64,000 nucleotides of DNA from an uncultured Sulfitobacter sp. (GTDB lineage: Bacteria > Pseudomonadota > Alphaproteobacteria > Rhodobacterales > Rhodobacteraceae), in contig CANMZB010000011.1 in NCBI GenBank assembly GCA_947502265.1, forward strand, positions 62,001-126,000, given 5' to 3'. Position 1 is the stretch's first letter, and each line of letters begins with the position of its first letter. The notes beneath the pieces were generated by a model, which saw only the letters and a list, made by a program, of their open reading frames with translations, had not been told where the DNA came from and did no database searches. Positions 13,642 through 52,501 of this stretch are shown piece after piece. The position numbers were made by a program, and so were the translations under genes.

Positions 13642-13787
13642 GGGGTGCGGACTGCTCTTTTGGGTCTGGTCAAGTTGGCTCTGGGGGTGTCTAGGCAAGT
13701 TTGGCTATGGGGGCAAGGGAGGAAGCACATGTGCGGCGCAGACTTCCACCATAGACAAGCGATTTGTTGCGGGGCATTCTATTGAAC

Positions 13788-48464: not shown

Positions 48465-49394
48465 ATGGTTGACACCCCCCGTTCGTTTCAGGAAATTATT
48501 CTGCGCCTGCAAAGCTATTGGGCACGTCAGGGCTGTGCCATCCTGCAACCTTATGACATGGAGGTCGGGGCAGGCACGTTCCACCCTGCGACCACCCTGC
48601 GCTCGTTAGGCACGCAGCCTTGGGCCGCGGCCTATGTGCAACCCTCGCGGCGCCCGACGGATGGCCGTTACGGCGAGAACCCGAACCGCTTGCAACATTA
48701 TTACCAGTATCAGGTCTTGATCAAACCCAGCCCGCCAGAGTTGCAAGAGCTGTACCTTGGTTCGCTCGAAGCGATTGGTGTGGACATGGATTTGCACGAT
48801 ATCCGGTTTGTCGAGGATGATTGGGAAAGCCCGACATTGGGTGCATGGGGCTTAGGCTGGGAAGTGTGGTGCGATGGCATGGAAGTGAGCCAGTTCACCT
48901 ATTTTCAACAGGTCGGCGGGCATGATTGCCACCCTGTCTCGGGTGAGCTGACCTATGGTCTTGAGCGGCTGGCGATGTATATTCTGGGTGTGGATCATGT
49001 GATGGACATGCCGTTCAACGATCCCGATGCGCCAATCCCGCTTAGCTATGGGGATGTGTTCAAGCAGACCGAAGAAGAATACGCGCGCTGGAATTTCGAT
49101 GTGGCCAACACCGATGTGTTGCTGCGCCACTTCGAGGAGGCAGAGACCGAATGCGGCGCGATCCTTGCCCAAGAACATCTGGACCCGAAAACTGGCAAAC
49201 GCATCGTGATGGTGCATCCTGCCTATGATCAGGCGATCAAGGCGAGCCACATCTTCAACCTGCTGGATGCGCGCGGCGTGATTTCCGTCACCGAGCGGCA
49301 GGCGTATATCGGACGGGTTCGTGCGCTGACGAAAATGTGCGCGGATGCCTTTGTGCAAACCCGCGCAGGTGGCTGGACACAGGATGCGGCCTGA
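48465..49394 (+). CDS. glyQ: Glycine--tRNA ligase alpha subunit
   Basis: The 309-residue catalytic subunit of tetrameric bacterial GlyRS shows [20 protein letters not shown], the ATP-binding motif 2 region [31 protein letters not shown], and motif 3-like [13 protein letters not shown]. It activates glycine. It lies upstream of a small membrane-protein gene and glyS, a conserved order in this group. The ATG is preceded by AAAGG at a suitable distance. Confidence 0.96.
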
Positions 49395-49463
49395 TCCGGC
49401 GCAGGATTTATCGACCGCTGACGTGCGCGCCAACACACGGCACGTTTGAGCCTATATTGAACT

Positions 49464-49550
49464 GAACCCGACGCATGAGCGGCAAAACTTTAGAACCCGA
49501 CGCATGAGCGGCAAAATCGTAGGACCCGGCGCATGAGCGGCAAAATCGTA
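49464..49550 (+). repeat. Three tandem 29-bp copies of a translation start
   Basis: Units begin at 49464, 49493 and 49522 and each contains GCATGAGCGGCAAAA. Only the last ATG (49533) opens the full gene. The ATGs at 49475 and 49504 open 10-codon frames (MSGKTLEPDA and MSGKIVGPGA) whose TGA overlaps the next ATG as ATGA. Confidence 0.9.
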
Positions 49551-50054
49551 GGAATCGTCATCTTGATCTCTTCATTGATTGTGGGGGCGTCTCTTTATTA
49601 TCTTCAGGTCTACGGATTTTACCACAAGGTGTCCGCACCGGTCGAGGGGATCAGCCTGACGACCATCGCGTCCGGCGAATCCGAAGTGATCCCGTTCGAG
49701 AACTTTCAGGCGATCGACGCCGACAGCTCCCCGATCCGCTATCGCGCGTGTTTCGTTACGCCCTACAGTCTTGCCTTGCTGACGGAGACGTTCCAGATGG
49801 TCGAAGGCGTGATGCCGCGCAACGCGCCGGGCTGGTTCGACTGCTTTGATTCCGGTGCCATCGCGGGCGAGCTGGAGGCAGGCACAGCGCTGACGTTCAT
49901 GGGGCAGAAAAACGTGGCGTATGGTGTGGACCGGATTGTGGCCATCACGAACGACGGGCGCGGTTACGCGTGGCACGAGCTGAACGATTGTGGTGCCAAG
50001 GCCTATGACGGCACCGTGACGGGCGAGGAATGCCCGCCGAAGCCTGCCCGCTGA
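49533..50054 (+). CDS. DUF6446-like single-pass membrane protein between glyQ and glyS
   Basis: This 173-residue protein has an N-terminal transmembrane helix (IVGIVILISSLIVGASLYYL) and an exported domain. In that domain SSPIRYRACFVTPYSLALL and NAPGWFDCFDSGAIAG are the recognisable conserved parts, with about four cysteines (two near ACF and DCFD, two near the end). The family name is recalled, and the function is unknown. It consistently sits between glyQ and glyS in related genomes, as far as I remember. The start is the third copy of a tandem repeat; AGGA lies eight bases upstream. Confidence 0.8.
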   Translation: MSGKIVGIVILISSLIVGASLYYLQVYGFYHKVSAPVEGISLTTIASGESEVIPFENFQAIDADSSPIRYRACFVTPYSLALLTETFQMVEGVMPRNAPGWFDCFDSGAIAGELEAGTALTFMGQKNVAYGVDRIVAITNDGRGYAWHELNDCGAKAYDGTVTGEECPPKPAR

Positions 50055-50185: not shown

Positions 50186-52501
50186 GTGCCAGACCTGCTG
50201 ATCGAACTTTTCTCCGAAGAAATCCCCGCACGGATGCAAAGCCGCGCGGGCGAAGACCTTAAATCGCTGGTCACCAACGGGCTGGTCGAGGCGGGCCTGA
50301 CCTATGCCAGCGCCGCCGCGTTTAGCACGCCGCGCCGGTTGTGCCTGACGGTCGAGGGGGTGCTCGACGCCAGCCCGCGCACAGTGGACGAGCGTAAAGG
50401 CCCCAAGGCAGACGCCCCCGAGAAAGCCATCGAAGGTTTCCTGCGCGGTGCCGGCCTGACCCGCGCCGATCTCGAAGAGCGCGACACCCCCAAAGGCAAG
50501 ATTCTGTTTGCCAAAATCACCCGCGAAGGCCGCCCTGCCGCGGACATCGTGGCCGAGGTGCTGGACACAACGATCCGCAACTTCCCGTGGCCCAAATCCA
50601 TGCGCTGGGGCAACGGTTCCTTGCGCTGGGTCCGCCCGCTGCATTCGATCCTGTGCATCCTCACGCGTGAGGACGGCGCGCAAATTGTTCCGCTTGACGT
50701 GGACGGCATTGTCGCGGGCAACACGACACGCGGTCACCGGTTCCTTGCGCCCGACGCTTTTTCCGTCAGCGGCTTTGATGATTACACGGCCAAGCTGGCG
50801 CGCGCGCATGTGGTACTCGATCCGGTCGCGCGCCGCGACACGATCTGGCATGACGCGACCAACACCGCATTCGCCAACGGCATGGAAGTGGTCGAAGACG
50901 CGGGCCTTCTGGCCGAGGTGGCGGGGCTGGTGGAGTGGCCTGTGGTGCTGATGGGGCGGATTGGCGATGATTTCCTCGATCTGCCGCCCGAGGTGCTGCA
51001 AACCTCGATGAAAGAGCATCAGAAATTCTTTTCGGTTCGCAACCCCAAGACGGGCCGGATCGAACGTTTTGTGACCGTCGCCAACCGCACAACGGCGGAC
51101 GATGGCGCGACGATCCTCGCAGGCAACGAGAAGGTTTTGAGCGCACGTTTGGCGGATGCAAAATTCTTCTGGGACAACGACTTGCGGGTGGCAAAGTCCG
51201 ATGAGGGTATGGCTGCGTGGGTCGAGAACCTGAAAAACGTGACTTTCCATAACAAGCTGGGCACGCAGGCCGAGTTGATCGAGCGTATGGCCGTTCTGGC
51301 CCGCGAAATCGCCCCAATGGTCGGCGCCGATCCGGACGCCGCCGAAGAAGCCGCGCGCATCGCTAAGGCCGATCTGTCGTCCGAAATGGTCTATGAATTC
51401 CCCGAATTGCAGGGGTTGATGGGCCGTTACTATGCGCAAGCCGCCGGCCACAGCGACGAGGTGGCGGCAGCCGCCCAAGAGCATTACGCGCCGTTGGGAC
51501 CATCAGACGCTGTGCCGACTGCGCCGGTGTCGGTGGCCGTGGCGCTGGCCGAGAAGATCGACAAGCTGACAGGGTTTTGGGCGATTGATGAGAAGCCAAC
51601 GGGGTCAAAAGACCCGTTTGCGCTGCGGCGGGCGGCGTTGGGGGTTATTCGGACGCTGGAAGAAAATAGAGTCTCGCTAAGCTTGAACAGTCTATTGCGA
51701 CTCTCAGCAGAGAATTTGCATAAATCGGCTTCGATAGAGGCAATACAATCAATCTGGGTCAAATGGGATGAACCTGACGGCAATGTACGATTGATTGAAA
51801 CCACAGAGGAAAGTGTAGGCTGGGAAAGCGAGATCGACAATCGAAACGATGTTGTGACGTATCACCATAAAAAAGTTGAGACGTTCCCAATCGGTGCCGA
51901 TATATTTGATAAGTTTGAAAATGTATTTGATGCGCAGTTGCAAATTGGTTTGTGCCGCACTGTTTCCTACATAGTACCTCGGCTCCTCGCCTTCCTCCAC
52001 GACCGCCTCAAAGTCTACCTCAAAGACCAAGGCATCCGTCATGACATCATCGACGCTTGCATCGCTATGCCCGGCAATGACGACCTCACCCTGCTGGTCA
52101 AACGCGCCCGCGCGCTTAGCGATACGTTGAAAACCGACGATGGCGAGAACCTGTTGCAGGCGTTCAAGCGGGCGAACAATATCCTTAGTCAGGCCGAAGA
52201 GGCGGACGGGGTGGAATACTCTTATGGCGCGGATGTGAAATTTGCCGAGTCGGCAGAGGAGAAGGCGCTGTTTGCTGCCCTTGATGCCGCCGAAGCGGTG
52301 ATCACTCCGGCGATGGCTGCACAGGATTTTTCGACTGCGATGTCTGCGATGGCCGCCCTGCGCGGGCCGCTGGATGCGTTTTTCGAGGCGGTGCAAATCA
52401 ACACCGACAACGCGACCGTGCGGCGCAACCGGCTTAATCTGCTCAGCCGTATCCGCCAGCTTTGCACCGGCGTGGCGGACCTGACATCGGTCGAGGGGTA
52501 A
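50186..52501 (+). CDS. glyS: Glycine--tRNA ligase beta subunit, with an internal AT-rich insertion
   Basis: At 771 residues it is longer than the 689 residues of E. coli GlyS. Conserved parts are the start PDLLIELFSEEIPARMQSRA, FPKSMRWG-type PWPKSMRWGNGSLRWVRPLH, MKEHQKFF, FWAIDEKPTGSKDPFALRRA and the C-terminal RLKVYLKDQGIRHDIIDA. Residues about 492-597 are atypical (see the island feature). It begins with GTG and has GAGGA upstream. It provides tRNA binding and editing-type functions of the tetramer with GlyQ. Confidence 0.94.
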   Translation: MPDLLIELFSEEIPARMQSRAGEDLKSLVTNGLVEAGLTYASAAAFSTPRRLCLTVEGVLDASPRTVDERKGPKADAPEKAIEGFLRGAGLTRADLEERDTPKGKILFAKITREGRPAADIVAEVLDTTIRNFPWPKSMRWGNGSLRWVRPLHSILCILTREDGAQIVPLDVDGIVAGNTTRGHRFLAPDAFSVSGFDDYTAKLARAHVVLDPVARRDTIWHDATNTAFANGMEVVEDAGLLAEVAGLVEWPVVLMGRIGDDFLDLPPEVLQTSMKEHQKFFSVRNPKTGRIERFVTVANRTTADDGATILAGNEKVLSARLADAKFFWDNDLRVAKSDEGMAAWVENLKNVTFHNKLGTQAELIERMAVLAREIAPMVGADPDAAEEAARIAKADLSSEMVYEFPELQGLMGRYYAQAAGHSDEVAAAAQEHYAPLGPSDAVPTAPVSVAVALAEKIDKLTGFWAIDEKPTGSKDPFALRRAALGVIRTLEENRVSLSLNSLLRLSAENLHKSASIEAIQSIWVKWDEPDGNVRLIETTEESVGWESEIDNRNDVVTYHHKKVETFPIGADIFDKFENVFDAQLQIGLCRTVSYIVPRLLAFLHDRLKVYLKDQGIRHDIIDACIAMPGNDDLTLLVKRARALSDTLKTDDGENLLQAFKRANNILSQAEEADGVEYSYGADVKFAESAEEKALFAALDAAEAVITPAMAAQDFSTAMSAMAALRGPLDAFFEAVQINTDNATVRRNRLNLLSRIRQLCTGVADLTSVEG
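51659..51980 (+). other. AT-rich insertion within glyS
   Basis: GC content over 51661-51960 is about 43% by my count, against a clearly higher level on both sides. Rare codons cluster here: AGA, CTA (twice), CGA and three ATA. The reading frame stays open, encoding a Glu/Asn/Ser-rich segment that bears no resemblance to conserved GlyS. Flanking conserved blocks are ALRRAALGVIRTLEE on the left and RLLAFLHDRLKVYL on the right. Confidence 0.75.

Follow-up and report, generated by a model that had tools for sequence, protein, structure and literature searches.

Three tandem copies of the DUF6446 start region between glyQ and glyS in one Sulfitobacter lineage, and a case for their being a tolerated duplication

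The window analysed here, a stretch of 64,000 nucleotides from an uncultured Sulfitobacter sp., carries the genes for both subunits of glycyl-tRNA synthetase and, as the sole gene between glyQ and glyS, a gene for a DUF6446 protein (Table 1). The product of this gene scores 194.6 bits against Pfam family PF20044 (curated cut-off 26.7), and AlphaFold2 predicts an N-terminal helix followed by a mostly beta domain (mean pLDDT 89.6), a fold that returned no PDB match at E <= 0.001. We found the family in 60 of 62 genomes of the genus and in 148 of the 149 genomes of the order that were searched. A limited literature search returned no publication naming DUF6446.

Table 1. Genes, frames and repeat units at the glyQ-glyS junction of the window
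Feature	Position	Strand	Remarks
glyQ, glycyl-tRNA synthetase alpha subunit	48465..49394	+	NCBIfam NF006827 and TIGR00388 above cut-off; stop TGA 49392-49394
Open CTG-start frame	49391..49465	+	Overlaps the glyQ stop by 4 nt; ends 9 nt short of ATG1
Unit 1	49464..49492	+	29 bp; no Shine-Dalgarno match before its ATG
Mini-ORF 1	49475..49507	+	MSGKTLEPDA, then stop; stop overlaps ATG2 as ATGA
Unit 2	49493..49521	+	29 bp; no Shine-Dalgarno match before its ATG
Mini-ORF 2	49504..49536	+	MSGKIVGPGA, then stop; stop overlaps ATG3 as ATGA
AGGA, Shine-Dalgarno match for ATG3	49521..49524	+	Straddles units 2 and 3 (1 + 3 bases)
Unit 3	49522..49550	+	29 bp; contains the real start of DUF6446
DUF6446 gene	49533..50054	+	173 aa; Pfam PF20044, E 6.4e-58
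glyS, glycyl-tRNA synthetase beta subunit	50186..52501	+	NCBIfam TIGR00211 above cut-off

The start of the DUF6446 gene lies in the last of three tandem 29-bp units at 49464-49550. These units had been described in the original prediction and are borne out both by their alignment and by Tandem Repeats Finder, which places an array of period 29 with 3.0 copies at 49466-49553 (score 141, the top of 30 rows in the window). The second-longest period in the window belongs to a tandem repeat of 26 bp x 2 at 13664-13713, with 84% matches. As had also been noticed from the sequence, ATG1 (49475) and ATG2 (49504) open frames of only 10 codons, each closed by a TGA which overlaps the following ATG; the two stop/start overlaps of 4 nt fall at 49504-49507 and 49533-49536, the latter on ATG3 (49533). 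This arrangement follows from arithmetic, since the start reads ATGA and the period of 29 equals 2 mod 3, so that the reading frame of either additional ATG is closed precisely by the ATGA that follows; the same holds for every copied start whose period is 2 mod 3 and whose frame contains no earlier stop. Among 1666 computed start-spanning duplications of 12-60 bp at the junction of the closest relative, 33% gave the same ATGA relay form, and the regular look of the array thus needs no selection.

Units 1 and 2 differ at 3 of 29 positions, units 2 and 3 at 2, and units 1 and 3 at 5, in agreement with the earlier view that the duplication is older than the last few generations. Positions 1-24 vary at two sites only, positions 2 and 8, a near-identity that could reflect selection or simply youth. 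The divergence of the units bears, too, on whether the extra units are an assembly artefact, as the original prediction had allowed: the assembly is a 4.55-Mb draft in 109 contigs, but the units are not identical and the array, at 87 bp, is short and lies inside a contig of 149,067 bp, which makes an artefact so improbable that we hardly entertain it.

Comparison with the closest relative (G083, contig copy L034; 88% protein identity), which is placed as sister with 100/100 support, provided the single-copy state of this junction: its start region holds one unit. In that genome two GGA triplets flank the start, the first beginning 11 nt ahead of the A of the ATG and the second 18 nt past it. 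Their spacing is exactly 29 bp, so that a duplication joining them yields the unit length seen in the window. GAA is common to units 1 and 2, and GGA is found in unit 3 and in the relative; the tail ATCGTA is common to units 2 and 3, and unit 1 has ACTTTA. With the direction of change read from this one outgroup, the simplest history would begin with a duplication and a change of GGA to GAA in the first of the two copies, which was then duplicated in turn; the tail of unit 1 and unit 3 would have changed later. Slippage or microhomology would thus have copied the 29-bp stretch in at least two steps, and the GGA to GAA change would have arisen between them. At fourfold sites the window gene and its counterpart in the relative differ at 40 of 80 positions; the repeats are therefore younger than the split between the two, provided that they change at a similar rate.

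Start repeats of this kind are rare. When we counted tandem repeats near the DUF6446 start (15-100 bp, identity at least 85%), at one locus per genome, 2 of 60 genomes of the genus had one: the window genome and Sulfitobacter undariae DSM 102234 (G017), which carries a 28-bp repeat in two exact copies. Since G080, the sister of S. undariae, has no such repeat, the S. undariae duplication arose separately from the window array. There the mini-ORFs MSTT, MTGKLK and MSTT are joined serially by ATGA, the last one to DUF6446. In other genera no repeat was found in 81 whole genomes (the best-scoring 81 of 139 with a match, G492 skipped, with some starts placed by homology only) or in 22 named contigs (31 loci minus nine genus members), which may share species with the 81. 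Looser scans (at least 12 bp, 80%) also picked up matches of 12 bp ahead of the start, at 52 nt in L050 and 144 nt in L061, which fall under the 15-bp floor and were left uncounted.

A background scan for arrays of period 18-100 and at least 88% identity, with units of fewer than 8 distinct 3-mers dropped, returned four arrays in 1,189,917 bases around the locus from 60 genomes, the window array included, and five in 800,000 bases of G000 and S. undariae. None of the other seven arrays in these roughly 2 Mb spans an ORF start, judged by the ORFs listed for those stretches. Together with the ATGA chain of S. undariae this hints at more than chance and so speaks against a merely tolerated duplication. 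A doubled ATGANNGGNAA motif occurs in 9 of 394 family genomes and lies at DUF6446 in the window genome only, by a pattern that misses GTG starts and in a set of listed genomes from which S. undariae is absent. A genome of another genus (G237, L158) carries about three copies of a 35-bp unit, each containing ATGAAGGGCAAGATG, in a 3-kb stretch that gave no match to DUF6446, glyQ or glyS.

The original prediction had assumed that each unit brings along a ribosome-binding region, and in this it was mistaken. We took the anti-Shine-Dalgarno sequence from the 16S end of this assembly (...CACCTCCTTTCT; 16S rRNA 3' end of the window genome ...GGATCACCTCCTTTCT) and tried ATG spacings of 3-13 nt; the duplex energies at ATG1, ATG2 and ATG3 are 0, 0 and -3.9 kcal/mol, and a match, ending 8 nt ahead of the ATG, stands before ATG3 only. 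The tail GTAGGA, which in the single-copy relative lies inside the gene (codons 6-7), is found ahead of the real start as well in the window because of the duplication. The DUF6446 start has an energy of -3.0 in this relative and a weak -1.9 in S. undariae. Medians for the genus are -5.8 (34 genomes with direct overlap of glyQ and DUF6446) and -5.5 (the other 26), so that the values of the window and of its relative are weak for the genus. An improved Shine-Dalgarno match was rejected as the driver of the duplication, as the gain over the relative is only 0.9 kcal/mol and S. undariae stays weak.

RNA structure was rejected as a benefit of the repeats, the opening energy of the ATG3 region being 10.27 with three units versus 8.65 with one. 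A promoter in the spacer was considered for TATATT (49453-49458), which resembles a -10 box, but a scan covering the sigma-70-like type found no such promoter on the + strand in 49200-49700; the relative has, by eye, TATACT in this place, and its scan likewise gave no promoter-like site on the + strand. Terminator-like sites were also absent from 49200-49700, and the pairing of a leader ORF with a terminator-like hairpin, as in an attenuator, was not found. A glycine-sensing leader for the glyQ/glyS operon was discarded on the same ground and on the ground that the conserved glycines of the mini-ORFs (MSGK, MSGKIVG) copy the gene's own N-terminus.

That ATG1 and ATG2 have no Shine-Dalgarno match argues for weak initiation there and bears directly on the proposal that the extra starts compete with the real one and lower output. 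Two additional ATGs within 58 nt upstream of the real start could act as decoys that capture ribosomes and so reduce DUF6446 output, but at duplex energies of 0 strong competition is unlikely, the real start keeps its match, and the decoy frames run out on the following start, which leaves room for reinitiation. We consider such decoys improbable. The idea of a device for phase or dose variation by copy number fares still worse. Direct repeats of 29 bp can in principle expand or contract, but the sister species has one copy, the array is present in no other of the 60 genomes (one genome per species), and the single start repeat among the other 59 is the unrelated 28-bp x 2 of S. undariae. Moreover, since the real ORF begins inside the final unit, its frame is kept at any copy number, and the array does not switch the gene on or off; as a change of copy number alters neither the frame nor any sigma-70-like + strand promoter in the stretch scanned, we regard this reading as very improbable.

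The ATGA joins of the window are not peculiar to it. Across the genus the DUF6446 start reads ATGA or GTGA in 59 of 60 genomes, and in 34 of 60 the gene overlaps the glyQ stop by 4 nt (ATGA), the TGA within the start being thus the glyQ stop itself. Of the 26 genomes which lack this direct overlap, 13 have an ATG- or GTG-started ORF that runs from the glyQ stop (-4) to the DUF6446 start (-4). Ten of these bridging ORFs are mini-ORFs of 9 to 55 codons with peptides unalike, and three fill inserts of 355-373 nt. In L131, L142, L151, L121 and L128, for example, the glyQ stop coincides with an ATGA or GTGA and the DUF6446 start with an ATGA, and the frame is kept but the peptide is not. The insert at L039:1124-1504 (the contig equivalent of G085) holds a gene of the glyoxalase superfamily (Pfam) with both joins kept. 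Inserts of 351-373 nt between glyQ and DUF6446 also occur in the G028, G030 and G022 stretches, the 351-nt insert of G022 having an ORF that ends at -4. In total 50 of 60 genomes have a joined DUF6446 start, window and S. undariae included, and 10 of 60 have neither an overlap nor an ATG/GTG bridge, an inserted gene ending at -4 or a mini-ORF chain. An open bridging frame with CTG, CTA or GTA in the place of the start codon was seen in G083, G001, G013, G080 and G084, and G035, G021, G070, G065 and G019 have no open bridging frame. In G083 the CTG frame equivalent to that in Table 1 leads directly into the ATGA of DUF6446; for the frame in the window, use of the CTG as a start codon is doubtful. 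A coupled start therefore seems usual for DUF6446, as far as sequence can tell, and the triplication would fit it.

Could these joins hand ribosomes to DUF6446? In E. coli, coupling by reinitiation needs an overlap or a very short gap and is nearly lost at +38 nt (PMC10666635), so that a gene which loses its overlap with glyQ would lose coupling unless the gap is bridged. No other spacing comes close in frequency to overlaps of 4 or 1 nt, and coupling drops sharply with distance (PMC6728339, PMC10666635). A rival to a merely tolerated duplication is thus that an upstream ORF ending on ATGA, be it glyQ, a bridging mini-ORF or a duplicated start, delivers ribosomes to DUF6446 and raises its output. 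For the hand-over between units suggested in the original prediction, the usual joining of the start to an upstream ORF in this genus offers indirect support.

Evidence for such a relay comes from the phase of short spacers. Of the 20 genus genomes with spacers of 7-160 nt, 15 are in bridging phase, and each of these 15 spacers stays open all the way from the glyQ stop to the DUF6446 ATGA, over 963 nt in total with both ATGA ends counted; in 10 of the 20 an ATG or GTG start lies on the glyQ stop. The 151 control gene pairs, called crudely in 864 kb of sequence from G000, S. undariae and the window, include 46 in phase and 23 open (Fisher p 0.00017 and 9e-8). The crude caller picks the longest start, which leaves the phase unaffected and makes bridges hard to find in these controls (6 of 151). 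Of 252 pairs in a second control from 59 genus neighbourhoods, which contains the DUF6446 pairs as called, 60 were in phase and 28 open, and 3 were ATGA-ATGA bridges. The loosest count admitted every ATG, GTG or TTG ORF that ends at -4, including those whose start lies out of frame within glyQ; it yielded 24 of 26 versus 34 of 151 controls (p 9e-12) and was given no weight in the argument.

Counted by hand as lineages on the tree, 10 of 15 are in phase (p 0.0085). This count takes in G030 and G065, with spacers >160 nt, and omits G019 (734 nt, out of phase) together with the 351-373-nt inserts of the group G008, G018, G024, G032, G014 and G076, which was treated as one lineage despite weak support (89/23). 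Inclusion of G019 gives 10 of 16 (p 0.016), and restriction to spacers of 7-160 nt gives 9 of 13 (p 0.0088). ATG or GTG bridges occur in at least 4 of 15 lineages versus 6 of 151 controls (p 0.0024). Furthermore, in two close pairs the spacers differ in length (55/52 nt with support 100/99, and 94/67 nt with support 94/93) and the peptides are unalike, but the phase is the same. The ATGA-joined chain of three mini-ORFs in S. undariae points in the same direction.

Several observations weigh against a relay. The phase test was post hoc, the pattern having been noticed before it was tested, and in other genera the bridging phase is seen in 5 of 9 short spacers (p 0.14), with bridges nevertheless in 3 of the 9 (p 0.0044). 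The ten genomes of the genus that have no counted join would have to do without it. In the window itself, neither ATG1 nor ATG2 has a Shine-Dalgarno match, and the CTG-start frame from glyQ ends before it reaches ATG1, so that the chain from glyQ is broken there. In both the window and S. undariae the spacer is out of phase whether the repeats are counted or set aside, and in the latter case it measures 80 nt in each.

A precedent for an effect on output exists in laboratory-evolved E. coli, where a 38-bp duplication at argB was one of six re-made mutations that raised ArgB protein 2.6-8.2-fold (PMC6941894), and this raised translation counts in favour of the relay. By arithmetic on the coordinates in the strain table of that paper, the duplication spans -13 to +25 of the start; as in the DUF6446 array, a start codon is duplicated and the length equals 2 mod 3. 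The argB case is a single laboratory mutation explained by less hairpin at the ribosome-binding site, and section 9 of the same paper is silent on a copied start or mini-ORF (PMC6941894), whereas the DUF6446 array consists of three diverged natural units with no gain in predicted openness. It was the only start-spanning duplication found in a limited literature search. Its place among output-raising mutations means that a start-spanning duplication need not be silent. On balance we regard a ribosome relay as possible but doubtful, though the best of the alternatives.

The reading that we prefer, at a probability of slightly more than one half (about 0.53), is that the array is a lineage-specific tandem duplication of the DUF6446 start region which is tolerated, with DUF6446 made mainly from ATG3. 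Counted in its favour are the single unit of the closest relative with its 29-bp spacing of GGA and the rarity of start repeats (2 of 60, 0 of 81 and 0 of 22). Translation would begin mainly at ATG3, whose AGGA borrows the last base of unit 2, and ATG1 and ATG2 would be weak starts at most. The duplication would be tolerated because the copies spare the real start and keep the usual ATGA join ahead of it. We expect any effect of the repeats on DUF6446 output to be modest.

A more far-reaching proposal, which we consider unlikely and put forward only tentatively, is that the DUF6446 start is under selection to stay ATGA-joined, that lineages which lost the glyQ overlap retained or acquired bridging mini-ORFs in which the frame and not the peptide is conserved, and that relay ORFs can be born when the start is tandemly duplicated at a period of 2 mod 3. 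This route may have been caught in the window and, differently arranged with 28 bp and two ATGs per unit, in S. undariae.

Repeats dispersed in the genome are the mark of elements like the mycobacterial interspersed repetitive units (MIRUs). The DUF6446 unit resembles a MIRU in that an ORF within the repeat is joined to the gene at -4 nt, and is unlike one in that it is not dispersed and derives from the gene's own start: its 22-base core motif has, at up to 3 mismatches, three places in the whole assembly, all inside the array. A mobile element was rejected as the source of the spacer, which has no second copy in the genome (best other match E 0.18). Among the stretches compared, matches between the spacers of 20 genus genomes were confined to a pair of near-sisters and, in the case of the window, to the start region itself. 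MIRUs have been described as repetitive and apparently mobile, inserting at start codons with the inner ORF joined at -4 nt spacing; the same review also describes short upstream ORFs thought to deliver ribosomes (PMC12548453).

Other known systems share parts of the layout. Leader genes, very short ORFs directly upstream that have been proposed to feed ribosomes as reinitiation enhancers, have a preferred distance of about 10-13 bp in Proteobacteria (PMC4833913), in contrast to the 4-nt overlap of the DUF6446 mini-ORFs and their birth by duplication. Likewise, mgtQ is an 8-codon ORF between mgtC and mgtB, thus an intergenic operon mini-ORF upstream of a membrane-protein gene, which promotes translation of the next gene; it has a strong Shine-Dalgarno sequence and acts through alternative stem-loops (PMC8092293), whereas ATG1 and ATG2 have no such match. 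Pairs of genes with termination-reinitiation share a stop/start ATGA as the DUF6446 mini-ORFs do. The upstream partners here differ from those of such pairs in being 10-codon copies of the gene's own start with no Shine-Dalgarno match, and the coupling is a candidate one. The array departs from these parallels in that it repeats the start of the very gene it precedes, as three diverged units present at this locus alone.

If the relay proves true, copying an ATGA junction would be a simple birth route for bacterial upstream mini-ORFs, and a single gene in 60 genomes would offer a natural series, from direct overlap through bridging ORFs to tandem mini-ORFs, for measuring translational coupling. 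If it proves false, the array would be a short duplication of the ordinary kind, its regularity explained by a start that reads ATGA and a period equal to 2 mod 3.
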